Notes under the pieces: generated by a model | Seen by the model: only the letters and a program-made list of their open reading frames with translations | Told to the model about the DNA's origin: nothing | Databases searched by the model: none | Part shown: one piece after another, positions 3,159 through 30,381 of the stretch | Numbering within the stretch: position 1 is the first letter of the stretch | How the letters are laid out: each line of letters starts with the position of its first letter | Program-made: the position numbers and the translations under genes | From: a virus | Length of the DNA stretch: 30,381 bases | Direction: 5' to 3' (one strand) | IMG/VR virus record: IMGVR_UViG_3300027752_001667 | Span: 1 to 30,381 of that record

Positions 3159-3472
3159 TATCAATTACACAGTCAGCTATCGACCACATGTCGACTCTGA
3201 TTACTGAACAAGGCCAACCTGTCGTCCGACTTCAAGTCAAGGGCGGCGGTTGCGCCGGATTTCAATACGAATGGAAGATGGAAGATGCTGTTGAAGCGAA
3301 TGACGAAGTTATTGACTTACCCAATGGCAAGTTTGCTATTGATGAGTTTAGTGTAATGTATGTCGCTGGCACTGAAGTTGATTTTGTTAAAGAAGTTTTT
3401 GGATCTCAACTTGTAATTAGAAATCCTAATGCAACATCAAGCTGCGGCTGCGGCGAGAGTTTTGCTGCCTAA
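3134..3472 (+). CDS. HesB/IscA-type iron-sulfur carrier
   Basis: The 112-residue protein matches the A-type Fe-S carrier family over its whole length. It has a GGGCAGF block with C40 and a C-terminal SSCGCGESF block with C104 and C106. The 64-residue spacing from first to second Cys is the same as in E. coli IscA (C35, C99, C101), so all three cluster ligands are present. It should bind iron or an Fe-S cluster and pass it to client enzymes. Phage copies of this family occur in marine myoviruses. The start overlaps the membrane peptide, and a TTG three codons later is an alternative. Its last 36 nt overlap the convergent uvdE-like gene. The many radical SAM enzymes further along are plausible clients (inference). 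Confidence 0.92.
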   Translation: MDNLEKRLVSITQSAIDHMSTLITEQGQPVVRLQVKGGGCAGFQYEWKMEDAVEANDEVIDLPNGKFAIDEFSVMYVAGTEVDFVKEVFGSQLVIRNPNATSSCGCGESFAA

Positions 3473-4468
3473 GTAATGCTCATACAATTTAATACTCGCT
3501 AAATTCTTACATTTACTTTCACACATAATATCTGCATAGTCTAAGAAACTTAATGCCCAGTCATTAACTTTATCATTAGGATAATAATCACTGTGCGCTC
3601 TTAGTTTACCTTTTTTGTAGCCTTGTTCTAATAGTACAGGCATATCAGGCATAGTGTCATGTGCAAAGCCTTCAGGCAAGTGTTCTGTTCTGCTGTAGCT
3701 GTAATGCATTGCAGGACGTACACCGCGCCAACTATCAACTATGCGTTTAAATCTATCATCGGTGGGTAAAATATATTCACCTTCTCTTGCCCAGTGATGG
3801 TGTATGTCGAGTACGAGTGCGCAGGTATTGGCAAGCTCAAGACTGTCTGCGATTCCCCATTTGTTTTCGTCGTTCTCGATCGTAATAGTGTTTCTCGCCT
3901 CTTGAGAAAGTCTGTTGTTGACTGCATGTTTAATACCGGCTGGACCTTGCCTGCCTGATATATGGACGTTGCACTTGAAGTCTTGGAATGTGCGTCCATA
4001 GCCCATCCAGCGGATGACATCGGTGTGATATTCAAATTCTTCTATGGGACTATCTGAAGCAAGGACTGTAAATTGGCCTGGGTGCATGGAGAGTCTAACA
4101 TCGAGGGCTCTTGCTTGTTTGCCAACGTTTGCAAAGTTTTTCTCACAGTACGCAACAACATCCGGCTTACGCCAAAAATAAGACCACTCATGCTGAGTAT
4201 ACACAGGAAGTACATCACTACCAAGTCTAACCATTCGTAATTCATTTGGTAAACCTCCAACATATGTAATTAGGTTCATGTACGATTGTACATTATGAAC
4301 CATAATATCCCACAACCGTTCTTCAGCAACTTCACGGGTTTGTCTATTAAGCCACTGTACTGTTGTACTTTTTGTATTTAGTGGCCGCTGAATTTCTTCT
4401 AATACTTTCTTAGTCTGTGTTTGGTCCGGGTGCATGTATTTACATGCGAAGCCTATACGTTTAATCAT
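3437..4468 (-). CDS. uvsE: UV damage endonuclease UvdE/UvsE
   Basis: This 343-residue protein has a UVDE-type TIM-barrel pattern. Visible metal and active-site segments are SMHPGQ, ITIENDENKWG, LVLDIHHHW, MHYSYSR, RAHSDYY and the late DIMCESKCKN with its Glu, corresponding to the conserved His, Gln, Glu, Asp, Lys and His set of Thermus UVDE. The enzyme nicks DNA 5' of UV photoproducts and starts a repair route independent of UvrABC, which suits a virus of sunlit water. It is the last gene of the minus-strand operon, and its ATG overlaps the end of the HAD gene by 8 nt. The Ala-rich tail, encoded in the 36-nt overlap with the IscA-like gene, may be unstructured. Confidence 0.92.
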   Translation of the reverse strand: MIKRIGFACKYMHPDQTQTKKVLEEIQRPLNTKSTTVQWLNRQTREVAEERLWDIMVHNVQSYMNLITYVGGLPNELRMVRLGSDVLPVYTQHEWSYFWRKPDVVAYCEKNFANVGKQARALDVRLSMHPGQFTVLASDSPIEEFEYHTDVIRWMGYGRTFQDFKCNVHISGRQGPAGIKHAVNNRLSQEARNTITIENDENKWGIADSLELANTCALVLDIHHHWAREGEYILPTDDRFKRIVDSWRGVRPAMHYSYSRTEHLPEGFAHDTMPDMPVLLEQGYKKGKLRAHSDYYPNDKVNDWALSFLDYADIMCESKCKNLASIKLYEHYLGSKTLAAAAA

Positions 4469-12102: not shown

Positions 12103-12147
12103 ACTATTTTTCCTTTTAAAATGCGGCATTCGTTTGCTGCATGTTCT

Positions 12148-12176
12148 ATTATATAAGCCTAGACTGTGTTTGTCAA
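12148..12176 (-). promoter_or_regulatory. perfect-consensus sigma-70 promoter for the histone-like gene
   Basis: TTGACA (12171-12176) and TATAAT (12148-12153) on the minus strand are 17 nt apart, a full match to the bacterial housekeeping consensus. Transcription would start about 40 nt before the ATG at 12102. A promoter of this strength suggests very early, high expression using the host polymerase. Confidence 0.88.
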
Positions 12177-12203
12177 GCATTAAAGTGGTTAAATACGTAT
12201 ATA

Positions 12204-13184
12204 ATGAATGATTTTACTTTAATACCGTTTCACAATATTGTTAAGTTTGGGCAAAAGACCATGCTTGACCAGCCATTGTTTAATGTTAGCTGGATATTAG
12301 GCCGCTTTTGTAATTACAGTTGTAGCTACTGTTGGCCGTATGCAAACACGAATGTACCGGATCATCAGGAGTTTGAAATATATACTAATGCGCTTGATGA
12401 GATAAAACGTCAGGCTAGAGATAATGGCTTTACAGAATTCCACTTTAGCTTTAGTGGTGGTGAGCCTACTGCGTATAAGAAGTTTGGTGATTTAATAGAA
12501 CACTATGCCAACGATGATGATGCTAAGTATCTAAGTTTGCATCTAACAACGAATTTAAGTCCAGGTAGTAAATGGTGGAACAGATTTATTGATGCTACAC
12601 AGCATTTACACCGTCGAAGTATTACTGCAAGTTATCATGCAGAGTTTGCTAATGAACAAGAGTTTGGAGATAAATGTCTTCAGCTTATGAAAGGAGGAGT
12701 TTATGTTACGATCAATCAAGTTATGGTTCCTGAAATGTTTGAGGAACTTTACGAACGCCTGGAACGATTTGCCACCAGAGGTATCAATGTCACTCTCAAA
12801 CCCCAATCTGACCCCACCGCATCTTTCGTTGTACATGGATACACTGAAGAACAAATCACAAGAATGCAAAGAGGATTCCCACAGCACTGGAAAGAAAAAG
12901 AAGTAATGCAAATGTACATGGAAGATGCCAAAGGCAACGACTATGGGTTGGACCAAGCTGAACGCATGAACGCTTTTGGATTTAATAAATTTAAAGATTG
13001 GACATGTAACGCAGGATATCAAAGCTGCATTATAAGCGGTGATACTGTCAAGAGAGCATATAGTTGTAGCGATAAACCATTAGGTACGCTACAGGGCGGT
13101 TTTACGCTGTTTAAGACACCAACTAAGTGTATTACCGATACATGTGTAAGTAGTGCAGACAGTAAGATACCAAAGGTAAAGTAA
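12204..13184 (+). CDS. radical SAM protein 1 (C-terminal Cys-motif subgroup)
   Basis: The 326-residue protein has the CxxxCxxC cluster site as FCNYSCSYCWPY (C36, C40, C43) and the GGEPT SAM-contact motif at 85-89, so it should bind a [4Fe-4S] cluster and cleave SAM to a 5'-deoxyadenosyl radical. The C-terminal part has DWTCNAGYQSC and then KCITDTCVSSAD. This fits a C-x4-C-x-[CS]-x2-D pattern shared with radical SAM proteins 4 and 5 and probably binds an auxiliary cluster. The ATG at 12204 is preferred over an upstream one at 12141, which would add 21 unlikely residues and overlap the promoter of the opposite gene. It starts a five-gene plus-strand operon. The substrate is unknown. Confidence 0.88.
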   Translation: MNDFTLIPFHNIVKFGQKTMLDQPLFNVSWILGRFCNYSCSYCWPYANTNVPDHQEFEIYTNALDEIKRQARDNGFTEFHFSFSGGEPTAYKKFGDLIEHYANDDDAKYLSLHLTTNLSPGSKWWNRFIDATQHLHRRSITASYHAEFANEQEFGDKCLQLMKGGVYVTINQVMVPEMFEELYERLERFATRGINVTLKPQSDPTASFVVHGYTEEQITRMQRGFPQHWKEKEVMQMYMEDAKGNDYGLDQAERMNAFGFNKFKDWTCNAGYQSCIISGDTVKRAYSCSDKPLGTLQGGFTLFKTPTKCITDTCVSSADSKIPKVK

Positions 13185-13786
13185 TGAAGATTGATATTCA
13201 AGATATAAAGTTTTGGATGGACGCTATTCGCAACAGCGAAGATAGAGACCGTACACTTGAAAGTTTTTGGGGAGGCCAGTTAAAATCAAAAACTTGGTTA
13301 ATTGAAACTTTAGAAAAGTCTAATCATGTTGCCAATGCTGAAGTAGTTATATTTGGTGGATGGAATGGAGTGTTAGCTAACATGCTGTTTAATAGTAGCA
13401 TAGGGTTTAAACATATTACAAGTGTAGACATTGATCCTGTATGCGAAACCGTTGCACTGACAATTAACAAACGTCAAGAAATGGAAGGACGTTTTATAGC
13501 AGTAACATCAGATATGTGTGATTACGAATATACAAATAAACCTTATTTTGTTATTAATACAAGTTGCGAACATATTAGTCAACAACAATATAATAAATGG
13601 TTAAGTAATGTTCCAGAAGGCTCGAAGATAATATTACAATCAAATAACTATTTTGACCTTGAAGAACATGTTAACTGTAGTGCATCATTAGAAGAATTTG
13701 CAAGAAAGTCTAAGTTAAAAGTATTACACTCAGCTGAATTAGAATTACCTAAGTACAAAAGATTTATGATTATAGGAAACCTTTAA
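13184..13786 (+). CDS. SAM-dependent methyltransferase (class I Rossmann)
   Basis: The 200-residue protein shows a class I fold pattern. VVIFGGWNGVLANMLF (54-69) is the Gly-rich SAM-binding loop, ITSVDIDPVCETVA (78-91) has the acidic residue at the end of strand 2, and YFVINTSCEHI is a plausible strand 4 motif. It should transfer a methyl group to an unknown acceptor. Both ends overlap by 1 nt (TAATG) with radical SAM proteins 1 and 2, so it is tightly co-translated with them. A matching role, methylating the product or substrate of the radical enzymes, is an inference. Confidence 0.72.
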   Translation: MKIDIQDIKFWMDAIRNSEDRDRTLESFWGGQLKSKTWLIETLEKSNHVANAEVVIFGGWNGVLANMLFNSSIGFKHITSVDIDPVCETVALTINKRQEMEGRFIAVTSDMCDYEYTNKPYFVINTSCEHISQQQYNKWLSNVPEGSKIILQSNNYFDLEEHVNCSASLEEFARKSKLKVLHSAELELPKYKRFMIIGNL

Positions 13787-14868
13787 TGTTTGACTTTAAT
13801 GATCTAAAAACTATTCACATTGAGCTAACAACAAACTGTCAAGCAAAATGTCCAATGTGTTCAAGAAACATACACAGCGGAGTAGAAAATCCGCTATTAC
13901 GAATAGTACAATGGACATTGGACGATTTTAAAACTATTATTAACAAAGAAGTATTAGACACAATTAACCGTGCGTACTTCTGTGGTAACTTTGGCGATCC
14001 ATTACTAAATGACAGTCTTATTGATATGTGCAGATATGTAAAGGACACCAGTCCTAAGACAGCAATAGGTATACATACAAACGGTAGTTTAAGGAATGCA
14101 AAATGGTGGTCAGATCTAGCAAAAGCATTACCAGAAGACCATTGCGTTTACTTTGCTCTTGACGGACTAGAAGACACTCATAAATTATATAGAGTTGGCA
14201 CAGATTGGAATCGTATTATTGAAAATGCAAAAACATTTATTGCAGCCGGAGGCCGTGCTAACTGGACATATATCAAATTCAAACACAACGAGCACCAAGT
14301 TGATGAATGTAGACAAATTGCAAAAGATTTAGGCTTCCAAGATTTCACAGTTAAAAACACATCAAGATTTTTAGTTGAGCCTAAGTATGATGTATGGGAT
14401 AAAAATAAAATTCCACTGTATAGTTTAGAAGCACCATCTGATACCGAAACACACTTTTTACCTAAAGAAGTTATTGACAATTATAAATCAGTTTTAGACG
14501 AAGCAGAAATAGATTGTCATGTACAACAAATAAAAGAAATATACATTGATGGTTCTAAAACAGTATTACCATGTTGTTGGTTAGCACAAACTCCAATGAC
14601 TCATTATGATCCTGCACATGTTTGCGAAGATGTTATAGATATGTTAAGAGGACAATATAGTAAAATGATAAGTGACTTTGGCGGTATAAGCAATCTTGAT
14701 GCAACTAAAGGAATAAAAAATATTATTGACTCTGACGTTTGGCAAAACATATGGAAAAAGAAATGGAATGAAGATAAAATGCTAATGTGTGCAAGAACAT
14801 GTGGTAAGTTTAAAACATTTAATATCTCACAACCACAAGATCAATTTATTGAAAGAGAAATGTTATGA
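13786..14868 (+). CDS. radical SAM protein 2
   Basis: The 360-residue protein has TTNCQAKCPMCSRN with the CxxxCxxC site C18, C22, C25. FCGNFGDPLL stands in place of the usual GGEP motif, as in many radical SAM/SPASM enzymes, and IGIHTNGSL follows. The C-terminal half has VLPCCW and a late MCARTCGKF, consistent with a SPASM-type auxiliary cluster region. It likely starts radical chemistry on a peptide or small-molecule substrate. It overlaps the methyltransferase (TAATG) and radical SAM protein 3 (ATGA), so it is the middle gene of the operon. It does not belong to the twitch or C-terminal Cys-motif groups of this island. Confidence 0.87.
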   Translation: MFDFNDLKTIHIELTTNCQAKCPMCSRNIHSGVENPLLRIVQWTLDDFKTIINKEVLDTINRAYFCGNFGDPLLNDSLIDMCRYVKDTSPKTAIGIHTNGSLRNAKWWSDLAKALPEDHCVYFALDGLEDTHKLYRVGTDWNRIIENAKTFIAAGGRANWTYIKFKHNEHQVDECRQIAKDLGFQDFTVKNTSRFLVEPKYDVWDKNKIPLYSLEAPSDTETHFLPKEVIDNYKSVLDEAEIDCHVQQIKEIYIDGSKTVLPCCWLAQTPMTHYDPAHVCEDVIDMLRGQYSKMISDFGGISNLDATKGIKNIIDSDVWQNIWKKKWNEDKMLMCARTCGKFKTFNISQPQDQFIEREML

Positions 14869-16271
14869 CAGATTGGCACTACGATAAAGAAGATACTAGA
14901 TTAGGCAAGTTTCAAAGAGAGCTTGAATCTGTTTCTAGTAGTACGTTTTGTGTACTTCCGTGGATACACATGGCAACTAGGCCTAACGGTGATATGCGCT
15001 TATGTTGTACTGCTAATGCTAGTGGAGCTGGAGACGATCACGAAGTTGGTCTTGTAAAAATGGAAGATGGCAAACCTGCAAACTTTGGCAAACATACTCC
15101 AATGGAAGCATGGAATAACGATTACATGAAAAGTGTACGTACAACTATGCTTAAAGGAGAGATCCCTGCAAGTTGTAAAGGATGTTTCAAAGAAGAGTCA
15201 CAAGGCATTGTTAGCAAACGTATATGGGAAAGTGCAACATGGAAAAATGATGAAGGTATTGATATACCAGAACTTATTGCACAAACACAAGAAGACGGAA
15301 CCGTGCCTGAACAATTAAAATATCTGGATCTAAGATTAGGACATACATGCAATATTAAGTGTGTAATGTGTAGCCCGCATGATTCAAGTAAGTGGGTTGC
15401 GGACCATAAAAAACTTATTCCTGTACTACAAGACCCAGAAGTTAAAAGACAAATGCAATGGGATAAGAAACTTTTTAACAACAAATGGCACGAAAAAGAT
15501 GCTTTTTGGCAAGAACTCAATGCGCAAATACCTTACCTTAAACAAGTATATTTTGCTGGAGGAGAGCCGTTAATGATCAAAGAGCATAAACGCTTTCTTA
15601 AAGAAATTATTACACAGGGCTATGCTGACAAAATTTTAGTAAGGTACAACTCCAATGGTTTGCTAGTTGACAACGAGTTAATTGATATATGGAGTAAGTT
15701 TAAGAAAGTTAAATTTGCAGTAAGTATCGACTCGTATAAAGAGCGTGACGAATACATCAGATTTCCAACTAACTTTAAACAAGTTGAAAGCACATTACAT
15801 TTACTAGATAACACTCCCGACAACATTCATGTTAGCATTGCAACAGCAGTACAAATATTCAATATAAAAACTATACCCGAATTTATTAAATGGAAAGTTA
15901 ATAGTAATTTTAAAAAGATGAATGTTGGTTTGATTGATGGACATATTATGGGAGGCGGCCTTTTAAATGCACACTTAGTACACATACCAACATTTTTAAA
16001 TATTACAATACTGCCTGAAAAAGACAAGCAAGAAGTACGTGAAAAGTTCGCTGAACTAAAACAATGGTTATGGAACAACTTTACACAAGACGATGAGTTT
16101 TGGAAACACAATCCTAAAGGTTGGCGCCAATGGGAAGGGTTACTAAAGCACATGGATAGTTGTGATAACAGTCATATGTTACCTGGCTTTAAAGAGTATG
16201 TAAATAAATTAGATGCAATCCGTGGCTTGAATGCCGCATCAGTATTTCCGGAGTTATCACATTTACTATGA
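14865..16271 (+). CDS. radical SAM protein 3 with N-terminal twitch/SPASM-like domain
   Basis: The 468-residue protein has an N-terminal Cys region: FCVLPWIHMATRPNGDMRLCC (C29, C47, C48) and ASCKGCFKE (C104, C107), typical of the half-SPASM or twitch domain that carries an auxiliary Fe-S cluster. The radical SAM core follows, with HTCNIKCVMCSPHDSSKW (C162, C166, C169) and VYFAGGEPLM. This inverted order (twitch before core) is a form I associate with uncultured phage proteins. Radical SAM protein 6 on the other strand has the same layout and motifs, so the two are paralogues. It overlaps both neighbours by ATGA. Substrate unknown. Confidence 0.88.
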   Translation: MTDWHYDKEDTRLGKFQRELESVSSSTFCVLPWIHMATRPNGDMRLCCTANASGAGDDHEVGLVKMEDGKPANFGKHTPMEAWNNDYMKSVRTTMLKGEIPASCKGCFKEESQGIVSKRIWESATWKNDEGIDIPELIAQTQEDGTVPEQLKYLDLRLGHTCNIKCVMCSPHDSSKWVADHKKLIPVLQDPEVKRQMQWDKKLFNNKWHEKDAFWQELNAQIPYLKQVYFAGGEPLMIKEHKRFLKEIITQGYADKILVRYNSNGLLVDNELIDIWSKFKKVKFAVSIDSYKERDEYIRFPTNFKQVESTLHLLDNTPDNIHVSIATAVQIFNIKTIPEFIKWKVNSNFKKMNVGLIDGHIMGGGLLNAHLVHIPTFLNITILPEKDKQEVREKFAELKQWLWNNFTQDDEFWKHNPKGWRQWEGLLKHMDSCDNSHMLPGFKEYVNKLDAIRGLNAASVFPELSHLL

Positions 16272-17278
16272 CAGATATTATTAAGATTGTTAATACTAGA
16301 GAAGAAGATTATATAGCAATTACATACTTCCCTACAGATATTTGTAATTTTGATTGCACGTATTGTTTTCCAGGAAGTCACCCATCTAAATATAGATACA
16401 GAAAAGACACAGACTTTGTCATTGACAACTTTAAAAAATTATTTGCTTTTTATAAATTAAAATTTAATAAATCTAAAATATATTTTGAAATTGCCGGTGG
16501 TGGCGAACCAACACTATGGCCGGATTTATTAAAATTTTGCAAAGAAATTAAAAAAGTTCCAGACTTATCTATAGCACTAGTATGCAACGGATCAAGAACA
16601 CTTCGTTGGTGGGACACTATTATTCCCTATATTGACGAAGTTATGTTAAGTTACCATAACGAATTTACAAAAACAGATCATTACATCAATGTAGCAGATT
16701 TGATTTGGGAGAATGGTAAGAAAGTAAATGCTAATGTATTAATGGATTATCCTAATTGGGATAAGTGTATCGATGCAATTGAACAAATGAAACAAAGTAA
16801 ATACAACTGGTTTATAAATGCAAAAGAAGTAGTAACTGCTCCAGGGCACGATGTAGAATCATATACTTTAGAACAAAAAGAATATTTAAAACAACCTATT
16901 AAGCGTTTGCCTAATTCAAGTTATATACTAAACAATCTACAAGATTATAGAATGGTCGAAAGTGTTGCAATACTTAATAACGACAAAGTAGTTACAGCAG
17001 GTCCTAATTATTACTTAATAAACTCTATTAATAATTTTAAAGGATGGGCATGTAACGTAATATCTGAAAGAATAACTATTTTTCCTTCTGGCAAAATAAC
17101 AGGATCGTGTAACATAGACTTTGATTATGATTTAAATTTATACTCGAACACGTTAGAAAAAGACTTAAAACAAGTTACATTACCTTATGTAACATGTACT
17201 ATGAATTGTTGTGCTTGTCTAAGTGATAATCACATTACAAAATCAAAGCCAGCTATTATTCCTGCAGTACCTTTGTAA
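16268..17278 (+). CDS. radical SAM protein 4 (C-terminal Cys-motif subgroup)
   Basis: The 336-residue protein has DICNFDCTYCFPG (C26, C30, C33) and IAGGGEPTLWP, so the cluster and SAM sites are intact. The C-terminus repeats the subgroup pattern: GWACNV, then TCTMNCCACLSDNHITK, matching C-x4-C-x-[CS]-x2-D. It is the last gene of the plus-strand operon and ends inside the convergent radical SAM protein 5 (23-nt overlap). The coding strand is very A/T-rich even for this window. It probably acts on a substrate similar to that of proteins 1 and 5; which one is unknown. Confidence 0.87.
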   Translation: MTDIIKIVNTREEDYIAITYFPTDICNFDCTYCFPGSHPSKYRYRKDTDFVIDNFKKLFAFYKLKFNKSKIYFEIAGGGEPTLWPDLLKFCKEIKKVPDLSIALVCNGSRTLRWWDTIIPYIDEVMLSYHNEFTKTDHYINVADLIWENGKKVNANVLMDYPNWDKCIDAIEQMKQSKYNWFINAKEVVTAPGHDVESYTLEQKEYLKQPIKRLPNSSYILNNLQDYRMVESVAILNNDKVVTAGPNYYLINSINNFKGWACNVISERITIFPSGKITGSCNIDFDYDLNLYSNTLEKDLKQVTLPYVTCTMNCCACLSDNHITKSKPAIIPAVPL

Positions 17279-18170
17279 GAGGTATATCAGCAGCACACGT
17301 ACACCATTTACGAGTACAAGTTATCCATTCTTCAGGCTGCTCAAAACTGCCATCATAGATGTTACCTATACTTCCACCTACTCTACAAGTAGCACGATGT
17401 ACATCGCCGTCCCAATTAATCATTAGGCTTTCAATTCCTGCACTGCATTTCCAACCTTTAAATTGATTTAGGTGTTGTTTAATAACATCGTTGGCATGCA
17501 TCTTAGTTGTGTCGTCAATAATTACATTAGGATTTACGGTAGACGTTCTGTCTAATATCCATTCTAAATCTTTACCATCATATTTTAAATCATCAAATAC
17601 ATCATGGTCTCCTTCTGTCCATCGTATTCGTCTTACAACAAACGGAATATTATGGCTGTCAAACACCGTAGCACATTCTTTTACTCTATCCATAAATTGA
17701 TGGTGTGCCATTAAGTTAACTTGAAATGGCTTTTGTGTATACGCACCTTCATTTAATTGAGAAAACAATAATACTGTTTCTGCGCATCGTCTCCAATTTT
17801 CAGTATCTTCTACGTGCAAACTAAACACAATGTGACTTACATTAAGATCGTTGTAGTACTGGGCTGTGCGGGTTCCGTTGGTAGTTACGTTAACCCACTC
17901 AAGCTGTTGACCTTGCATTGCATGATCGACTAGTTCTACAAACTGTGGATGAACACACGGCTCACCGCCTGTGAAACTTACACGTATTGGCTTGCCAATT
18001 TCCCCTAGTGCATCAACTGCATCTAACAATACTTTAATATTTGTGTGCGGGCTAGTGTTGTCATGAATTGCTGCTGGGCAATAACTACAATCTAAGTTAC
18101 AGCGTTTACCTAAATTCCATTCAACATGAACGCTATCTTGTCGATCATAACTAGAAGCTATTTTAAACAT
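17256..18170 (-). CDS. radical SAM protein 5 (C-terminal Cys-motif subgroup)
   Basis: From the ATG at 18170 the protein has 304 residues; a TTG three codons earlier is possible but less likely. KRCNLDCSYCPAA gives C24, C28, C31, and FTGGEPCVHP is the SAM-contact motif. The tail has GWKCSAGIES and then TCTRKWCTCAADIPLTK, the same C-x4-C-x-[CS]-x2-D signature as proteins 1 and 4. It overlaps protein 6 by 8 nt at its start and protein 4 by 23 nt at its end, so it completes a minus-strand set (QueC-like, 6, 5) facing the plus-strand set. Confidence 0.87.
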   Translation of the reverse strand: MFKIASSYDRQDSVHVEWNLGKRCNLDCSYCPAAIHDNTSPHTNIKVLLDAVDALGEIGKPIRVSFTGGEPCVHPQFVELVDHAMQGQQLEWVNVTTNGTRTAQYYNDLNVSHIVFSLHVEDTENWRRCAETVLLFSQLNEGAYTQKPFQVNLMAHHQFMDRVKECATVFDSHNIPFVVRRIRWTEGDHDVFDDLKYDGKDLEWILDRTSTVNPNVIIDDTTKMHANDVIKQHLNQFKGWKCSAGIESLMINWDGDVHRATCRVGGSIGNIYDGSFEQPEEWITCTRKWCTCAADIPLTKVLQE

Positions 18171-19434
18171 ACGGCGCAAACTCTGGATTTATAACTTCAA
18201 ACGGTCCTTGCTTACGACTTTTGTCTAAGTTACGATTAAAGTTAATACAGTCTTGCCATAACTCGTCGTGTAAATCGTCTGCTTGTAAGAAGTTAATATT
18301 ATCCTGAATCTGCGTTAACGTAAAATCTTTAATTCTGCTATCACTTTTTACAAGTTTGTAATCTAAAACTTTTTCTTTCATTGCTTCTAGTTTATCAATT
18401 ACTTGTAGTTTTAGTTCATTAGGAATAACCTGTGCTGATAACGCCTTAGGATATTGTACTCTATGACTGTAGAATATAATTTCCATGTTCTCCATAAAGT
18501 ACTCAATTACTTTATCAATTTGCATTATATTGTTTGACTGTACAGTAAATGCTCCAACAATTCTACTAACTGTAGGAATTGTTTTCATAATTTTAATATT
18601 TTCTTCAATCTCAATAAACTTGCCATTGCCTCTAATGTATTCATAGATATCGTGTATACCGTCTATGCTTACATTAACAGCAACACTTTTAAACTTAGGC
18701 CAATATTCGTGTACAGTTCGACCGCCCTTAATACCAAGTGTAGTTCCGTTAGTAGCATACTTTAATTCAATGTTCTCTCCATACGGTGCTAACATATCTA
18801 AAATTTTATAATGTTGAGGATCCATTAATGGTTCGCCGCCTGCAAACTCTACTCGTCTAAAGTAGGGCAATAGTTTCTTAAAACTACTCCACCAATTATC
18901 TGTATCTTCAAATGCATCAATATATTGACCTGGCTTTTTAACCAGTGCATTAACTGTTGGAATGAGAAAGTTATTTTCTTTTTTGTAAAATTCTGTAACT
19001 TGATCCCAGTCTTTCCATTGTGTGCTATCTAACGGGTTACACATACGACATTTAAGATTACATAAGTTGTTTAACTTTACTTCCATTGTAGGTATTTCAA
19101 ATGGCATTGAATAATCATCTTCTAAGGCGTCTAATGCATTGGGATATAAATTAATCCTAGCTTCTGGTATGACACCTTCTATATGTCGCTGACGTAAACT
19201 TTGAACTCCTTGGTCTTCTAACCTAAAACAAGGTGCGCATACTTCAGGTCGTTCGTCATTCATTACCTGCCGGCGTACCTCTTTAATCTTGTCTCCGTTC
19301 CAAATTTCTTCTAGTGTGTTATCTTTGATATCGCCAATAGGAGCACTGCGGCAACAAATCTTAATTGCGCCATCTTCTCTAGTTGCTAATCCTGTAAAAG
19401 GATGCATACAAAAAGTTTTACTGTTGCATGGCAT
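18163..19434 (-). CDS. radical SAM protein 6 with N-terminal twitch/SPASM-like domain
   Basis: With the ATG at 19434 it has 423 residues. That start has a GGGGAG site 6 nt upstream and keeps the overlap with the QueC-like gene to 17 nt; an ATG at 19491 with a closely spaced AGGA would add 19 residues. The N-terminal twitch-type Cys are C9 in TFCMHPF, C27/C28 in KICC and C66/C69 in EVCAPCF. The core has NNLCNLKCRMCNPLDSTQW (C125, C129, C132) and VEFAGGEPLMD. These motifs line up one by one with radical SAM protein 3, so the pair arose by duplication or parallel acquisition. It likely carries two Fe-S clusters. Confidence 0.87.
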   Translation of the reverse strand: MPCNSKTFCMHPFTGLATREDGAIKICCRSAPIGDIKDNTLEEIWNGDKIKEVRRQVMNDERPEVCAPCFRLEDQGVQSLRQRHIEGVIPEARINLYPNALDALEDDYSMPFEIPTMEVKLNNLCNLKCRMCNPLDSTQWKDWDQVTEFYKKENNFLIPTVNALVKKPGQYIDAFEDTDNWWSSFKKLLPYFRRVEFAGGEPLMDPQHYKILDMLAPYGENIELKYATNGTTLGIKGGRTVHEYWPKFKSVAVNVSIDGIHDIYEYIRGNGKFIEIEENIKIMKTIPTVSRIVGAFTVQSNNIMQIDKVIEYFMENMEIIFYSHRVQYPKALSAQVIPNELKLQVIDKLEAMKEKVLDYKLVKSDSRIKDFTLTQIQDNINFLQADDLHDELWQDCINFNRNLDKSRKQGPFEVINPEFAPYV

Positions 19435-20158
19435 TGGTAACTCCCCATTGTCTTTCTTGGCACCAAAAACATTTTTTACATGTTGGAACATATTGTCCTG
19501 GCTTGTATGTTGCGTAGTCTAATCCTTTAAACACTTCCGGATATTGCTCATTATCACCTTCGCAACTTCTTGTTATATTAAGTAACTCGGCAATATCATA
19601 TTTTATAAATTGCCCAATAATCCAATCTTTTCTAGTTTCTATAAATGGGTGACAAACTGTAACTCCCATATGTAACATTATAGCATCTATTGATGGTGTT
19701 TGTCTATCATTTAATGCACCTTCTAACTCTACATCAGGGTTTAATGTTACTCCTGCAAACCATGCATCTAACTTTTCCTTGTGTGCTAGATACTCATTAA
19801 ACGATCGTAAAATAATTCTGTTTCCAGATTTCATTTTACCATTTTCGTCTTTGATCATAGTTGTGTGTGGTTCTTCCAGATCGGGTGGTATAAAGTTTGT
19901 GTGTCTTATAAATTCAAGTTCTGGAAATTTAGCAATAAACCAATCAAACACTTCAGCTGAAATGTGTTCTTGCCATGGCCTTGTTTTCCAACAGCGTATC
20001 TGTGTACTAATATGTACCCTGCAATTTACAGGTAAATTTTTACATATCAAATATGTTAATAATGCACTGTCTGCACCACCGCTAAGGCTTATGCCAATAT
20101 TTCTCCAATTTGGATCAATGGGGAAATCTACATGATCTATTTTAATCCACTTACGCAT
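19418..20158 (-). CDS. QueC-like ATP pyrophosphatase (PP-loop)
   Basis: The 246-residue protein has the PP-loop ISLSGGADSALL (26-31 = SGGADS), which binds ATP and activates a carbonyl or carboxyl group by adenylation. Near the end C199 (RSCEG) and C227-xx-C230-xx-C233 (PTCKKCFWCQERQWG) match the zinc-binding Cys pattern of QueC, the 7-cyano-7-deazaguanine synthase. In the queuosine pathway QueC acts after QueD and QueE. A QueD-like protein lies 10 kb away, but I see no QueE or QueF. It may have another substrate. The ATG at 20158 is preferred; it overlaps the divergent oxygenase start by 27 nt. It heads the minus set with radical SAM proteins 6 and 5. Confidence 0.7.
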   Translation of the reverse strand: MRKWIKIDHVDFPIDPNWRNIGISLSGGADSALLTYLICKNLPVNCRVHISTQIRCWKTRPWQEHISAEVFDWFIAKFPELEFIRHTNFIPPDLEEPHTTMIKDENGKMKSGNRIILRSFNEYLAHKEKLDAWFAGVTLNPDVELEGALNDRQTPSIDAIMLHMGVTVCHPFIETRKDWIIGQFIKYDIAELLNITRSCEGDNEQYPEVFKGLDYATYKPGQYVPTCKKCFWCQERQWGVTNAMQQ

Positions 20159-22132: not shown

Positions 22133-22656
22133 AAAACTTAGGCGTATGTGATACAATAGATTGGAACAACGTTATTGCACAATGTGCTAGTGTTGATCCT
22201 GAGTTTGTAGGTCCAAGCCACAAACGTGGAGATACAATACCTGGACTAGATCCTATACTAGATATGTGGGAACAAGCAGGATATAAAACTGTACACGAAG
22301 GCGGCACAGCAGGATGGGATATGTTTATGCCCGGCAAGCAATTTGATCAAAGTGTAGCAGATGCATGGAATAAATTTTATGGATTAAAGTGTGAAAACAT
22401 TTGGATAAGCAGAGTATGGCCCGGACGGTTTGCTCCTATACATTGGGACGTACACGATGACGAAGTTAACTTGCCCGACTGCCCAAGATATCATAGCCAT
22501 ATAGGAGAACCGCAATGGGGCCACATTTTTATTGCAGATGAAGAAATATTTTATAACCAGCCACAAGGAACAACTTGGGAATGGACTGATAGAAAGATAT
22601 GGCACGCCGGAACTAATTGCGGGCTAGTGCCTAAGTATATATGGAACGCATGGTAA
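22129..22656 (+). CDS. 2OG-Fe(II) oxygenase-like protein 3
   Basis: The 175-residue protein carries the same signature as its neighbour: RVWPGRFAPIHWDVHD (H105, D107), QWGHIFIADEE, then WEWTDRKIWHAGTNCG (H159). The two share short blocks in the same order but differ in most residues, suggesting an old duplication with divergent substrates. It overlaps protein 2 by ATGA and the next gene by TAATG, so translation is coupled. It probably uses Fe(II), 2-oxoglutarate and O2 to hydroxylate an unknown target. Confidence 0.65.
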   Translation: MKNLGVCDTIDWNNVIAQCASVDPEFVGPSHKRGDTIPGLDPILDMWEQAGYKTVHEGGTAGWDMFMPGKQFDQSVADAWNKFYGLKCENIWISRVWPGRFAPIHWDVHDDEVNLPDCPRYHSHIGEPQWGHIFIADEEIFYNQPQGTTWEWTDRKIWHAGTNCGLVPKYIWNAW

Positions 22657-23255
22657 TGGAAAATATTTTATATTTAGATCATCCATGGATCATGGTTTAC
22701 AAAGATGTGTTAGACGATAAAACTTGTGATAAGTTTGTTAAAAAGTATAATGAGTTAGGAATGAATCCAAACGCAGGATTAGAATCTAGAGAACAAACCT
22801 ACGGACAGATTACAGAAGAAGTAGAACAGCGTAGTATTAGTTGGGACACTTCACCTGAAGATAGACAGTTTTTTAGAGATAAAATTTGCGAAGTATTAAA
22901 GATACCTGACAGCCATATTGAAGCTGGTGACATTTATAGATATGATACCGGGCAGTACTTTGGCCTACATCATGACTTTCCGTACACACCTGAAGATATT
23001 GCGTACTATGCCAAAGGCGGCGATAGAAAAGCAACTGCAATCTTTTGGTTGAATGACGGATACGATGGTGGAGAATGCAAGTTTCCTGAATTAGCCGTTA
23101 GTGTTGTACCTATGAAAGGCGGCATGATGTATTTTGAATACGACTACGATGATGAAATAATCAATAAAATGACAATACACGAAGGCATGCCAATTACCAA
23201 AGGCGCAAAATGGATAGCAGCTTTCTTTATTGCCAACGGTCCGAGGGTAGAATGA
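22656..23255 (+). CDS. prolyl-4-hydroxylase-like 2OG-Fe(II) oxygenase
   Basis: With the ATG at 22656 (TAATG with the previous gene; an ATG 15 nt earlier also exists) the protein has 199 residues. It follows the P4H pattern well: YRYDTGQYFGLHHDFPY with H105 and D107, TAIFWLNDGYDGGECKFPEL, and MTIHEGMPITKGAKWIAAFF with H175 as third ligand and K185 for 2-oxoglutarate. This is the most canonical oxygenase of the island. Related proteins are common in marine T4-like phages; targets may be peptidyl-proline or free amino acids. It is followed by two SDR genes with ATGA overlap. Confidence 0.85.
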   Translation: MENILYLDHPWIMVYKDVLDDKTCDKFVKKYNELGMNPNAGLESREQTYGQITEEVEQRSISWDTSPEDRQFFRDKICEVLKIPDSHIEAGDIYRYDTGQYFGLHHDFPYTPEDIAYYAKGGDRKATAIFWLNDGYDGGECKFPELAVSVVPMKGGMMYFEYDYDDEIINKMTIHEGMPITKGAKWIAAFFIANGPRVE

Positions 23256-23710: not shown

Positions 23711-24310
23711 ATGACTAAAAAAATAGTAATCACAGGACACACTAGCGGTATTGGTAAAGCAATTTTTGATAAGTTTACAGAAGTAAGCTGTCATGAGATT
23801 ATAGGTATGAGTCGTAGCAACGGATACGATATTGAAAAAGATTTTGATAAAGTTGTAGAAGAAGCCGCAGGAGCAGAAATTTTTATTAACAATGCTTATA
23901 GAGATCAGCAGCAGTTAAAATTATTTAATGCACTCAAAGATAAAGTAGATATGATGGTTGTTATGGGCAGTGTAAGCAGACTTTACCCCGAGCTTATTCC
24001 AACAGACTATGTACAAGATAAACAAGAACTTGCAGAGGCGTGCCGATTAGAAAGTATTAATCCTGATGGTATTCCTGTTTTGCATTTAGACTTAGGCTTT
24101 CTCGAAGGAACTACAGTAAGTGGAGATGATCCTGCAGAATTTTTAAGTGACTCTACTACTCCTTTAGAAGATGTAGTAGATACTATTATCTTTTGGGCAG
24201 GCAAGCCTACTATTAGACAAGTTGAATTTCGTTGGAAGCTGACAGATCATCTACGTGCAGAACTAGAGCGTATTAATCCTAACTTAGACCCATCTCGGAT
24301 ACAGTTCTAA
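23711..24310 (+). CDS. SDR-type NAD(P)-binding protein 2
   Basis: The ATG follows the stop of SDR 1 without a gap. The 199-residue protein has ITGHTSGIGKAIF (the TGxxxGIG motif), INNAY (NNAG-like, 60-63), VMGSVSR with catalytic-type Ser, and Y100-x3-K104 in TDYVQDKQE. This is the classical SDR set in a short version. Similarity to SDR 1 in motif order and size suggests a tandem paralogue pair. The role is probably redox of a sugar, amino acid or cofactor intermediate. Its last 27 nt overlap the convergent GNAT-like gene. Confidence 0.8.
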   Translation: MTKKIVITGHTSGIGKAIFDKFTEVSCHEIIGMSRSNGYDIEKDFDKVVEEAAGAEIFINNAYRDQQQLKLFNALKDKVDMMVVMGSVSRLYPELIPTDYVQDKQELAEACRLESINPDGIPVLHLDLGFLEGTTVSGDDPAEFLSDSTTPLEDVVDTIIFWAGKPTIRQVEFRWKLTDHLRAELERINPNLDPSRIQF

Positions 24311-24844
24311 ATTTTCATAAAATTTGTCAGGATGTATTTCCCACACAGTTTGATCAGTATGCCTGTAATGCACTTCTTTAATTTTACTTACCACACCTAT
24401 CTTAGCAAGTGTAGGAAAATATATAGAGTGTACTAGACGCTGACTCCCTTCTTTACTTTTGTTTGAAGTAGCAAACACTCTACCTTTATCTTTTGTCCAT
24501 TCTAAACAAACAGGAAGCATAAATTGATCTGTAAGATTTTGATGTTCAGCACAAAGTCGATTTGCTTTTACTAATCCGTTGTGCGGCCTTGCTTCGCCAA
24601 ATGTACATACTCTTGTAAGTATCCTATATGAGTTAGGACCCATAACATCATCAAACGAGTGTGCTGCTACACTGCCTATTGCTTTATCACCGTTATACAG
24701 TATCCAAGCATTCCACTCACGTTCGTTATGAAAACAATCAATCATAGCCTTTTGACTAGCATTATTGACGAAGCCTCTGCGAGTTGCCTCACTATAAAAT
24801 TCAGACAAGTCTAAGTCTTCATTCCATTCTATCATTTTATGCAT
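24284..24844 (-). CDS. GNAT-like acetyltransferase, tentative
   Basis: The 186-residue protein has a GNAT-like central run: WNAWILYNGDKAIGSVAAHSF (about 43-63), then YRILTRVCTFGEARP, which looks like strands 2-4 of the fold. The Gly-rich acetyl-CoA P-loop (R/QxxGxG/A) is not clear, though LAKIGVVSKI could be related. The assignment is therefore weak. The ATG at 24844 overlaps the kinase-like B gene by 8 nt; an ATG at 24835 is equally possible. It forms a two-gene minus-strand set with kinase-like B between two oxygenase blocks. Function unknown. Confidence 0.42.
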   Translation of the reverse strand: MHKMIEWNEDLDLSEFYSEATRRGFVNNASQKAMIDCFHNEREWNAWILYNGDKAIGSVAAHSFDDVMGPNSYRILTRVCTFGEARPHNGLVKANRLCAEHQNLTDQFMLPVCLEWTKDKGRVFATSNKSKEGSQRLVHSIYFPTLAKIGVVSKIKEVHYRHTDQTVWEIHPDKFYENLELYPRWV

Positions 24845-26373: not shown

Positions 26374-26874
26374 ATGGATTGGGTAGGTAACTTTAATAAC
26401 ACACTAGCTCCTGAAATAAATGATCTTGTAATGATCTCGACTGGTCAAGCTCGACCTGGTGATTGGGAACCTATTAATGCTGTTGAAGAAGATCTTTGGA
26501 AACAAGGTCAAGAAACATTTAACTTTGATAAAATAATGTGGTATGTATATGAACAGCAAGACTTACAAATTGATCTAAAGTTTCCTTGGACAACTGGAAA
26601 CTGTCATTGGTGGATCACTAAACTACTACCTGGGCAAATGATGCCTATGCATACAGATCCACACACTCACGATGATGGCACATGCAAACGATATTGGGTA
26701 CCTTTACAAGATTATATTCCTGGGCATGTTTTTATATACAATGATGTAATGGTATCAGATTACAAAAGAGGTGATGTGTTTCAATACTCACATTCGCAAG
26801 ACGAACACGGTGCAGCAAATCTTTCTTTTGTACCAAGGATAGTGCTACAAGTTACTGAGTACACCAATCATTAA
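26374..26874 (+). CDS. 2OG-Fe(II) oxygenase-like protein 5
   Basis: The 166-residue protein has LLPGQMMPMHTDPHTHD (H93, D95), a central WVPLQDYIPGHVFIYND, and FQYSHSQDEHGAANLS with H145, in the same order and spacing as oxygenases 2 and 3. The Pro-Gly turn two to six residues before H-x-D is shared by all three. It therefore belongs to the same small phage 2OG family related to aspartyl/asparaginyl hydroxylases. The ATG follows the previous stop by 2 nt without a clear ribosome-binding site, so coupling is likely. Its end overlaps the 449-residue gene by 23 nt. Confidence 0.62.
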   Translation: MDWVGNFNNTLAPEINDLVMISTGQARPGDWEPINAVEEDLWKQGQETFNFDKIMWYVYEQQDLQIDLKFPWTTGNCHWWITKLLPGQMMPMHTDPHTHDDGTCKRYWVPLQDYIPGHVFIYNDVMVSDYKRGDVFQYSHSQDEHGAANLSFVPRIVLQVTEYTNH

Positions 26875-28201
26875 TATGCCAAGTAGGGCATTTAAATTCA
26901 TCAATATTATATACAAGAATATCTTTTGCAGTCCCATATAAGTTATAGGGTGTAAACGCTTCTGAAGTTCTTGAGCTAAAGTTTATTTGTGCGTCTGGCA
27001 TTTCTTGCTTTAAATAATTGATTAAATGGTTCTCTTTTTGCAGTTTATACTTAATGTTGTATAGTGTGTTAGTACCTTCATAGCAAAAAATGTTGCTTAT
27101 GTTGTACAATGTATACTTTATGTAACGTTTTTCTAGGTAATCACATATATTAACATGCTCTCCTATGTTGTATAGTGTATTAGTGCCTTCATAGCAAAAA
27201 ATGTTGCTTATGTTGTACAATGTATACTTTATGTAACGTTTTTCCAGGTAATCACATATATTAACATGCTCTCCTAGTAAATCCCATTTAACAAATTTGT
27301 ATGTCACGTTAGGCAAACGTTCAACATTTTCTTTCCAGTAAGCTAAACTGCTTTCGTTGTAATCGTAAAGTACAACAGTTACAGGCTTAGTTTTGTGTAT
27401 CCATGATTTATACATTTCACCACTTGCTGGAGCAACTACTTGTCTTAGATTTTCGTAAATCCTATTATGATGTTCAGTGTGATCTGTATGTATATGCTCG
27501 GTCCTGCAAAAATTATCTTTGTAATATACATACTCCAACTGCTTGTAAAAGTCAGTAGGACTTTCAGGATAAAGATGTTTTTTATTGTTTCTAATATCTT
27601 CAGGAAATGCTTTAACATAAAACCCTTTTTTTAATGCAACACTAATAATATTCCATCCGTGACATTTATGATTGTATTTGGTGTTTCCAGACGGCGTATC
27701 TAGTTTAATCCAATGAGGAGTATAGCTGTCATGAAAGTTATTAGTTGAACGTTGTACTGCTAGTTGTGTGTGCTGCTCACCAAGTTGCTGTTGTCCAATT
27801 TTTGGACACCCTAGGTCTTTATAGTTTGTTAGGTTAACCAAAAAACACTGTTGGTGCAGTTCGTAATATGCATCGCCTCTATCCAAAATATGCCCTTTAA
27901 CTAGATAGTCAGGTTGGCATTCTTTGAGCAGAGCATCTATTGCTGTTGTGCCATTAGTAAATTCAGTACCCGTAGACAGCATACAAGCGTGTTTAAAGCG
28001 TTTCATTGCTTCCTGTAGTAGTAAGTCCCCACTTGTGCCTTGCAGCACTGTATAGCCCTTAGAGAAGAGGTTCTGTAGTGTAAAGTCAGCTTGGTTCTTA
28101 GTAAGCTCTTTGATCCACGGATCAGTTATTTTGGCAGTTGTATCTAAAATACAAAATACTAGTTCGTTGTTGCCATTAGGATTATATTCAACTATGTTCA
28201 T
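26852..28201 (-). CDS. 449-residue protein of unknown function with an internal duplication
   Basis: I do not recognise a family. The N-terminal half has a beta-alpha order with segments such as LVFCILDTTAKITD, GYTVLQGTSGDLLLQEAM and PDYLVKGHILDRGDAYYELH. From about residue 255 a Rossmann-like stretch appears: VVAPASGEMYKSW, then VTVVLYDYNESSLAYWKEN, reminiscent of a nucleotide- or SAM-binding domain. Residues of about 309-382 are two copies of a 37-residue unit (see repeat). The ATG overlaps the stop of radical SAM protein 7 (ATGA), and it is the last gene of a minus-strand set led by radical SAM proteins 8 and 7. A scaffold or substrate-modifying partner of those enzymes is possible (inference). 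Confidence 0.7.
   Translation of the reverse strand: MNIVEYNPNGNNELVFCILDTTAKITDPWIKELTKNQADFTLQNLFSKGYTVLQGTSGDLLLQEAMKRFKHACMLSTGTEFTNGTTAIDALLKECQPDYLVKGHILDRGDAYYELHQQCFLVNLTNYKDLGCPKIGQQQLGEQHTQLAVQRSTNNFHDSYTPHWIKLDTPSGNTKYNHKCHGWNIISVALKKGFYVKAFPEDIRNNKKHLYPESPTDFYKQLEYVYYKDNFCRTEHIHTDHTEHHNRIYENLRQVVAPASGEMYKSWIHKTKPVTVVLYDYNESSLAYWKENVERLPNVTYKFVKWDLLGEHVNICDYLEKRYIKYTLYNISNIFCYEGTNTLYNIGEHVNICDYLEKRYIKYTLYNISNIFCYEGTNTLYNIKYKLQKENHLINYLKQEMPDAQINFSSRTSEAFTPYNLYGTAKDILVYNIDEFKCPTWHINDWCTQ
27054..27275. repeat. 111-bp tandem duplication, two copies
   Basis: Two direct copies of 111 bp (27054-27164 and 27165-27275) lie inside the 449-residue gene. They differ at three bases, all silent, so both encode the same 37 residues. 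The frame is kept. Confidence 0.95.
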
Positions 28202-29031
28202 ACTTGTAACACTTTAATTTTCTTAATTTCAGATTCTATTGGGAGATCAATTTTTTTACTCCAATTGCATAATTGGCATTGAGATTGCGATTGTAATCTA
28301 GTATCACTCCACTCTATAAATTCTTCAGGACTACTGCCTAAATCTTGCTGTGCAATATCTTTATACGGTTGTTCTATTTGAAACTGTCTAGCTAACTTTG
28401 GAAGTAAGGCTTGTTGTTGACATCTGTAAAATCGTCCGTCTAGTAAATGCATACATTCTTTTGTAGGGCATAAACTAAACTGCTCGTCTATGTTACTAAG
28501 TGTTGGCCATGTGATTGATCGTTTGTCTTTTACCATATGCGGCAATTTATAGAATTGCCATGATTCAGATAATTCACCAACAACTACATTATCCTTTGTT
28601 AGTGTGTAATGTATGTCTGCATCAGTATGACGGTTGTCAACAAACTTAGTGTATGTGATATTGTTATCACGTAACCAAGATTTTATATTTGTTAAATCAG
28701 TTTGTGAATGTGCCGATATTTCTATTTGCCAGTTATCAAACCATCTTAAATTTAGTTTATCTAAATGCCTACCATTAGTTACAATCCACTTCTTACTGTT
28801 GGGCCACATATATTCAACCCATTCTGTCCACTTGCCTAACTTAGGGTGCAATGTTGCTTCGCCTCCTAAAATAAATATTTCATCAAACGTAACTTTATCT
28901 TTAAGTACTTCTACAGATGAATCAATCTCAAAGTGACCTCCCCAGTTCAAGTTGTTGTAAGTAAAACAACTTTCACATGCTAGATCACAAGTGTGTGAAA
29001 TATATACTGTAAGTTCAGGAAGGCGAAGCAT
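28198..29031 (-). CDS. radical SAM protein 7
   Basis: The 277-residue protein has SHTCDLACESCFTYN with C15, C19 and C22 and ILGGEATLHPK (GGEA at 56-59), so it should bind the radical [4Fe-4S] cluster. The C-terminal Cys (SLCPTKECMH, FYRCQQQ, CQLCNWSKK) suggest a SPASM-like auxiliary site. It is the shortest radical SAM of the island and lacks features of QueE. The ATG immediately follows the stop of protein 8, and its own stop overlaps the 449-residue gene (ATGA). It probably works with protein 8 on one substrate. Confidence 0.83.
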   Translation of the reverse strand: MLRLPELTVYISHTCDLACESCFTYNNLNWGGHFEIDSSVEVLKDKVTFDEIFILGGEATLHPKLGKWTEWVEYMWPNSKKWIVTNGRHLDKLNLRWFDNWQIEISAHSQTDLTNIKSWLRDNNITYTKFVDNRHTDADIHYTLTKDNVVVGELSESWQFYKLPHMVKDKRSITWPTLSNIDEQFSLCPTKECMHLLDGRFYRCQQQALLPKLARQFQIEQPYKDIAQQDLGSSPEEFIEWSDTRLQSQSQCQLCNWSKKIDLPIESEIKKIKVLQV

Positions 29032-30039
29032 CTATATCCTATTTTTTGCGTACTTGGCTAGTACGTTTTGTTCGTTTTGTTTTACTTTATCAACATTCTT
29101 AGGACACATATTACAGGCATCGATGTGTGTATAATGTTGATCATAAAAATTACGTATGGCGTTTGGATCGTTAAGTGTTAGGTCAACAGGCTTGTAGTTT
29201 ATATATGGTTGCCAATCTTTGTCATTTAGTTGTCCAGTCTTTGTTAGCACATTAATTAAAGTTCCTAATGCTCCACACTTGTATACTTTTTTGTTATACA
29301 ACATTGCACAGAAACAGCTAGGGCAGCCTTGCCAGTATGACGATTTTGGATCACCTTCGTTGAACGGTCTCAACTTTCCTAGTGAATCTTTGTTATGTAT
29401 CTTTTGAAAGCTATGAGCTTCCATATAATATATTCCACTCTTGTTCTTTGCATCCATCCAGGCTGCTTCGTTAGGAGATAGCTCATTTAAATCTATACCT
29501 TTACGGTTATTAAACTCTTCCCAAGCAGCATCACCGCCACCTAAGTTCATTATAGTTTTCCACCAAGTAGAAGTTACTTCTAATTTAGGTATACCTACAC
29601 GGGCTGCAAGTGTATATACATTTTCTAACATCTGATTATGTATTATTAGAACATCCCATGCTGCAACATGACTACATATCTGCATCCACACTTTATATTC
29701 TTTAATTAATTCTACAGCAAAATCCATTTGCTTTGGCTTGTTTAGTGCAATACCATTAGTAGGAAAGAAAATAACTTTATCTTTTTCTTTTTCTAAACTT
29801 CGGATATGTTTAATTATTGCAAGAACTGTATCTTTATATAAGAATGGTTCACCTCCTAGCACACTCCAACATTCTACATTGAATTGTTCACTAGCAAGTG
29901 TAACACTTTCTAATATGTTTTCAAGGGTAGGATCAAACTCACCATTACGTATGTAATCACTTCTAGTATCACAGTGAGCGCAGGCCAGTTGGCATTTGTT
30001 ACCATAGAACACATCTAATATTTTAATACTATTGTTCAT
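29032..30039 (-). CDS. radical SAM protein 8
   Basis: With the ATG at 30039 (AGGAAACAG ribosome-binding site; a start 24 nt upstream is possible but lacks one) it has 335 residues. GNKCQLACAHCDTRSDY gives C16, C20, C23, and CWSVLGGEPFLYKD is the SAM-contact motif. C-terminal Cys at GCPSCFCAML, VYKCGALG and DACNMCPKN look like a SPASM-type region for further Fe-S clusters. It overlaps the oxygenase gene by 11 nt. It heads the pair 8-7 followed by the 449-residue protein. Confidence 0.86.
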   Translation of the reverse strand: MNNSIKILDVFYGNKCQLACAHCDTRSDYIRNGEFDPTLENILESVTLASEQFNVECWSVLGGEPFLYKDTVLAIIKHIRSLEKEKDKVIFFPTNGIALNKPKQMDFAVELIKEYKVWMQICSHVAAWDVLIIHNQMLENVYTLAARVGIPKLEVTSTWWKTIMNLGGGDAAWEEFNNRKGIDLNELSPNEAAWMDAKNKSGIYYMEAHSFQKIHNKDSLGKLRPFNEGDPKSSYWQGCPSCFCAMLYNKKVYKCGALGTLINVLTKTGQLNDKDWQPYINYKPVDLTLNDPNAIRNFYDQHYTHIDACNMCPKNVDKVKQNEQNVLAKYAKNRI

Positions 30040-30381
30040 TCTGTTTCCTATAACTTCTTGCAATAAGTTCTACAAATTCATCTTTACGTTTACCTGGTAT
30101 ACCATGTGCTATTAAGTGTATTCTAGGTGTGTTAGAATTGTTAACAAAACTATGTACGTTTCTTATATTAATTATAAAAGCCTTTCCTTCTTTAAAAGGA
30201 ACAGTACCGTGTCCTTCAAGTGTCATATGACAGTCGTCTGGGTGAATAATTGCTATGTTAATAGGTACTCCAAACTCAAGCATATCTAAATTTTCTTCAC
30301 CTGGTAACTTTCCAGGAGCATCACTGTGCGGACTTATTTTGCCGCCAGGTTCAAGTTGCATAAAACGTATTCTTCTATAGC
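30029..30381 (-). CDS. aspartyl/asparaginyl hydroxylase-like 2OG-Fe(II) oxygenase 6, partial
   Basis: The frame is open to the right edge, so the N-terminus is outside the window; the ATG at 30361 is internal because the frame before it (YRRIRF) already fits the family. Visible motifs are LEPGGKISPHSDAP (H-x-D), VPINIAIIHPDDC, GKAFIINIRNVHSFVNNS (distal His) and PRIHLIAHG (Arg). This set is typical of the aspartyl/asparaginyl beta-hydroxylase family and is more canonical than oxygenases 2-5. It sits directly upstream of radical SAM protein 8 with an 11-nt overlap, so the oxygenase and radical SAM genes are one operon. Confidence 0.8.
   Translation of the reverse strand, partial: YRRIRFMQLEPGGKISPHSDAPGKLPGEENLDMLEFGVPINIAIIHPDDCHMTLEGHGTVPFKEGKAFIINIRNVHSFVNNSNTPRIHLIAHGIPGKRKDEFVELIARSYRKQNEQ

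Follow-up and report, generated by a model that had tools for sequence, protein, structure and literature searches.

According to the portion of a review cited here, assemblers poorly separate tandem from haplotypic duplications, contig ends being especially prone to this, which gives rise to false duplications (PMC10462168), and viral benchmarks, in the sections drawn upon, describe chimeric contigs arising from co-existing similar viruses (PMC5610896; PMC11443906). The locus presented here is a 111-bp tandem repeat within a single gene of a phage record, found in a window of 30,381 bp (by "window", the whole stretch of DNA that was analyzed is meant), and, judging from the sequences compared, its best explanation would be a false (haplotypic) tandem duplication at a contig join between two strains of one phage population, to which we assign a probability of roughly 0.7. 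The repeat does exist in the record, but the virus itself most likely lacks it.

The repeat (27054-27275) consists of two head-to-tail copies that differ by no indels and three mismatches, and it is called by Tandem Repeats Finder at 27054-27276 (period 111, 2.0 copies, score 425). All three mismatch pairs (27068/27179, 27074/27185 and 27134/27245) are transitions, and all three are silent (CTG/CTA, GGC/GGT and AAT/AAC, respectively); as 111 bp corresponds to 37 codons, the repeat is in frame and the ORF stays open. The initial annotation had described two in-frame copies with three silent differences, and this description was borne out by the repeat finder, the ORF and the codon comparison alike. 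The repeat as such is far beyond chance, while the silence of just three changes constitutes weak evidence, the probability of three random transitions in the unit all being silent standing at about 0.037. When the repeat is looked at alone, in frame, with silent changes only and within a single ORF, no sign of a fault is visible.

Table 1. Positions of the repeat, its junction and the associated features within the window.
Feature	Position	Strand	Remarks
Host gene	26852..28201	-	449-aa ORF
First copy in reading direction	27165..27275	-	Resident haplotype; identical to the one copy in L001 and L002
Second copy in reading direction	27054..27164	-	Second-haplotype silent transitions 27134, 27074 and 27068
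Junction of two haplotypes	27164..27165	-	1 bp microhomology; exact 28-mer absent from the viral collection
Tract with all seven single-base differences from L001	26948..27365	-	Silent transitions only
18-bp in-frame gap relative to L001	4047..4048	-	Six residues (EIVERS in L001); UvdE-type UV endonuclease gene 3437-4468

The most telling comparison is the one with L001, an 80.9-kb near-twin phage contig whose base 1 corresponds to window base 30381 and which has one copy where the window has the extra 111 bp. Over the whole shared stretch, 29,963 window bases are without any difference, and all that sets the window apart from L001 is confined to an 18-bp gap at 4047 and the 418 bp running from 27365 to 26948. 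Seven single-base differences are found within the latter (27365, 27356, 27305, 27134, 27074, 27068 and 26948) and none elsewhere in the shared sequence; the copy at 27054-27164 accounts for three of them and the sequence to either side of the repeat for the other four, and all seven are silent transitions. These positions were taken from the BLAST alignment together with a copy-by-copy list, the gap placement of a global aligner being such that three of them are hidden. The probability of seven random transitions in the tract all being silent is about 6e-4, and that of seven random sites in 30 kb clustering this tightly is about 7e-12. A further contig, L002, which carries a different sample number from L001, agrees with L001 at 7/7 sites, and the copy at 27165-27275 is, letter for letter, the sequence of both.

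The tract is thus made up of two haplotypes that continue outside of the repeat (three sites inside, four in the flanks), one of them being the reference haplotype and the other setting itself apart by about seven silent bases over some 307 bp of single-copy length. Within the 418 bp, the order runs from resident to second haplotype (27365-27305), back to resident (the first copy), then, after a step back of 111 bp, to the second haplotype again (the second copy, as far as 26948) and finally to resident. The junction between the copies is accordingly a joint of two haplotypes. Because one copy equals the sequence of the relatives and the haplotype of the other continues into both flanks, the three differences between the copies pre-date the joining, and they are to be read, on this comparison, as the middle of a longer haplotype and not as changes gained after a duplication.

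As the two contigs, the window and L001, terminate at a common base, they are taken to come from one population, perhaps even from one sample, and L001 provides a near-identical, single-copy sequence from that very population. The shared contig end may have another cause, since the last 300 bases of the window (30082-30381) are also present, at 100% identity, in the more distant L007, whose other aligned stretches match the window at 83-93% identity, and any assembler may branch at such a point if several strains have it in common; 30082-30381 marks, where the contig ends, a boundary in the strain mosaic.

Copy number in the related genomes tells the same story. Relatives of the 449-aa protein are encoded at 30 loci of the viral collection (25 distinct proteins), and the SNIFxYEGT-like stretch that lies within the unit occurs once in 30/30 of them, all 30 having been used for this count, and twice in the window; the duplication is therefore seen in 0/30 relatives, the near-twin included. 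The proteins of the closest ones, L001 and L002, are 412 aa long, i.e., exactly 37 residues shorter, with nothing else missing.

A second departure from L001 is the 18-bp gap in the UvdE-type gene. The 3/3 other copies examined (L001, L036 and L037) contain the six residues it removes, either unchanged or nearly so, and the Pfam UvdE score amounts to 112.9 bits for the window as opposed to 134.4 bits with the six residues. Since both the gap and the repeat set it apart from its relatives, the window is the odd one out at both places. Homology is nearly absent at the joints, with a microhomology of 1 bp at the duplication joint, which is thus of a kind requiring no sequence homology, and of 0 bp at the gap. 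In the viral collection (viral_contigs), which may omit records very close to the window, there were no exact matches to the 28-mer spanning the duplication junction, and the gap joint was not found elsewhere. For the second haplotype, two exact patterns were searched, the first taken from the second copy and the other from the flank with 27365/27356, and neither was found; the donor strain is therefore one whose existence we infer. No N, as would flag a scaffold gap, occurs in the window.

A false duplication could have come about as follows. Two strains, about seven silent bases apart over some 307 bp of the gene, would have been present in the data; the piece coming from the 30381 side would end at 27165, the far end of a 111-bp overlap, in the resident haplotype, and the onward piece would start at 27164, the near end of the same overlap, in the second haplotype. 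Had these pieces been laid end to end rather than merged, the overlap would be printed twice. The gap at 4047 may represent the same fault with the opposite sign, the pieces there having been joined with 18 bases lost, so that one process, end-to-end joining with a misjudged distance, could cover both the repeat and the gap. The joint would then be a product of computation and not of a cell. Neither a plain de Bruijn assembler nor simple k-mer chaining invents a junction without an overlap, and a scaffolding, gap-closing or merging step, or else a chimeric read, must therefore be assumed. It also has to be said against a false duplication that 111 and 18 are each divisible by three (a 1 in 9 coincidence), and that keeping the frame at both departures from L001 is what would be required by selection acting on a living virus.

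The only other tandem repeat with a period of at least 30 in the 35 loci counted (395,515 bases; 37 loci were scanned, and L031 and L032, being pieces of the window, were excluded) is located at L030:793-1030; its unit measures 119 bp, the copies differ by one mismatch and their joint shows no microhomology. A long ORF, tail-fiber-like by eye, is cut by this duplication after 55 residues, and the following ORF begins within the second copy. This looks to be an assembly fault of the same type in a further record of the collection.

The family of the protein gives little to go by: no Pfam match was obtained, the best PHROG match (E 0.14) was not usable, tblastn against named phage genomes at E 0.01 retrieved no homologue, and a profile scan of bacterial and archaeal contigs (genome_contigs) yielded 20 pattern hits with 0 relatives among them. 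A search by sequence against solved structures gave one match (E 0.13), a poxvirus entry-fusion protein, which was taken as chance. The AlphaFold model of the L001 protein, for which 29/30 relatives were aligned (L007 was left out), has a mean pLDDT of 88.0 and is divided into two domains by structure comparison, with residues ~9-228, among the matches listed, resembling GT-A glycosyltransferases, and residues ~223-390 resembling class I methyltransferases. The N-terminal fold is like that of the PBCV-1 capsid glycosyltransferase (2p72_B; Z 9.6, rmsd 3.8, 167 residues, model residues 12-227) and of LH3 (6tex_A; Z 9.4, rmsd 3.5, 160 residues), although at the sequence level, with 9-10% identity, it is unlike GT-A enzymes and the likeness is one of predicted fold only. 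The C-terminal fold is like that of EgtD (4pio_B; Z 9.2, rmsd 3.7, 150 residues, model residues 223-388), with EgtD and other methyltransferases reaching Z 8.2-9.2 over residues 223-390, whereas the sequences are unlike (11% identity, no Pfam match and none of note in the PDB set). The L001 model has the Rossmann-like methyltransferase fold in this domain, at Z values that are middling, and a P-A-S stretch is invariant in 29 proteins, SAM binding by it being putative only. With Z middling and identity at ~9-11%, a predicted fold is all that is claimed for either domain. The closest viral predicted structures are those of uncharacterized Caudovirales proteins (best TM 0.74), and the 30 viral loci would, on these models, represent an uncharacterized phage family joining GT-A-like and methyltransferase-like folds in one chain.

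The repeated unit corresponds to L001 residues 310-346, modeled as short helices (315-318 and 321-326) followed by a strand (327-331), with S332, N333, Y337 and T340 as its invariant columns across 29 proteins, and it would thus be an inner helix and the central strand of the methyltransferase-like domain and not a free-standing module. In the model of the window protein, which holds two copies (alignment A2; 24 rows, i.e., the window and 23/30 relatives), residues 312-348 fall under a pLDDT of 50, while the same element in the single-copy L001 model is a confident helix and strand. The alignment used for folding matched the relatives to the second copy, so the first was without relatives and would have had a low pLDDT in any case; the window model accordingly suggests one of the two copies to be surplus and does not indicate which. 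The proposal that the repeat forms an extra structural module was dropped, given that the two-copy model is unfolded at 312-348 (a result that the alignment favors) and the one-copy model is folded.

The strongest competitor of a false duplication is a real event, namely an in vivo unequal, illegitimate recombination within the gene between two co-infecting strains, each contributing one copy, that left donor patches on both sides, and the 37-residue insert beside the inner strand of the methyltransferase-like domain would then be tolerated as a loop or cripple the domain. We regard this as unlikely, albeit deserving of consideration: the repeat and the gap are both in frame, the seven silent transitions (P ~6e-4) speak for the second haplotype being the sequence of a real, selected strain and not sequencing error, short-patch strain mosaicism is seen between the window and L002 (1 to 136 SNPs per kb in aligned stretches within 11.5-28.2 kb), and phage T4, according to the abstract of one study, picks up changes by recombination (PMC9391042). 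Set against this are the four template switches that would be needed within 418 bp, one of them an illegitimate joint, in a genome the rest of which is without a single base substitution relative to L001, as well as the 0-1 bp of microhomology at both joints, the confinement of the duplication to the window (none of the 30 relatives has it, and its junction 28-mer was not found in viral_contigs), and a gap that costs the UvdE-type protein six residues which the three other copies examined all have, unchanged or nearly so, its score falling from 134.4 to 112.9 bits. The fuller version, in which a real lineage had the helix and central strand of a two-domain enzyme doubled by co-infection recombination and was caught before any further change, along with an 18-bp in-frame loss in its UV endonuclease gene, appears more doubtful still; were that lineage real, it would capture a phage population, clonal in other respects, in the course of rearrangements that need little homology and preserve the frame.

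That strains of these phages do exchange patches of sequence is shown by the comparison with L002. At 24000-24814, the window and L002 differ at 136 positions within one kb, the other aligned stretches (11.5-28.2 kb) showing 1-28 per kb, which suggests recombination patches between strains. The window also contains a dense phage-borne cluster of radical SAM enzymes: six radical SAM genes score above the Pfam cut-off at 12141-19491 (two of them with SPASM domains), and further ones lie at 29032-30063 (above the cut-off) and 28198-29031 (below it). A gene of the 2OG-Fe(II) oxygenase type is present at 22641-23255.

The scenario put forward by the initial annotation, in which a single genome freshly duplicated the unit and the copies then diverged silently under selection or were kept alike by gene conversion, is very improbable: it would fit the frame and the three differences, all silent, yet the copy at 27165-27275 is unchanged relative to L001 and L002 and 3/3 changes lie in the other copy, the haplotype of which runs into the flanks with four more changes at a like density (7 in ~307 bp, as opposed to 0 in the other 29,963 bases), while later divergence would not spill into both flanks and spare the rest of the genome, and gene conversion removes differences and does not import a tract. 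What stood of that earlier interpretation is the alternative it mentioned, a mix of strains in the assembly, which is best supported by the two haplotypes and the single copy of L001, and what fell is the fresh duplication and the extra module; the word "collapsed", moreover, does not fit this mix, as haplotypes that were due to be merged seem to have been laid end to end.

The record should, therefore, be treated with caution and not be read as depicting a new protein module. A clean in-frame repeat with silent differences mimics selection, and it takes comparison with a near-twin to reveal a joint of two strains; a cheap test for such repeats is to see if the differences that separate the copies continue in the flanking sequence. 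If the joint were real after all, the case would amount to illegitimate recombination between phage strains and a protein with a doubled core element.

A false duplication at a contig join differs here from the cases covered by the cited portion of the review, which concern heterozygous genomes (PMC10462168), in that it would involve a phage population and a mere 111 bp, in frame, and it is also unlike the chimeric contigs of viromes, as the benchmarks, in the sections cited, describe joins of two genomes and not short tandem repeats at the joint (PMC5610896; PMC11443906). With the latter it would share its source, highly similar co-existing viruses (PMC5610896; PMC11443906), and it resembles the haplotypic (false) duplications at contig ends, as characterized in that portion of the review, in having adjacent copies that represent two haplotypes of one locus which is single-copy elsewhere (PMC10462168).
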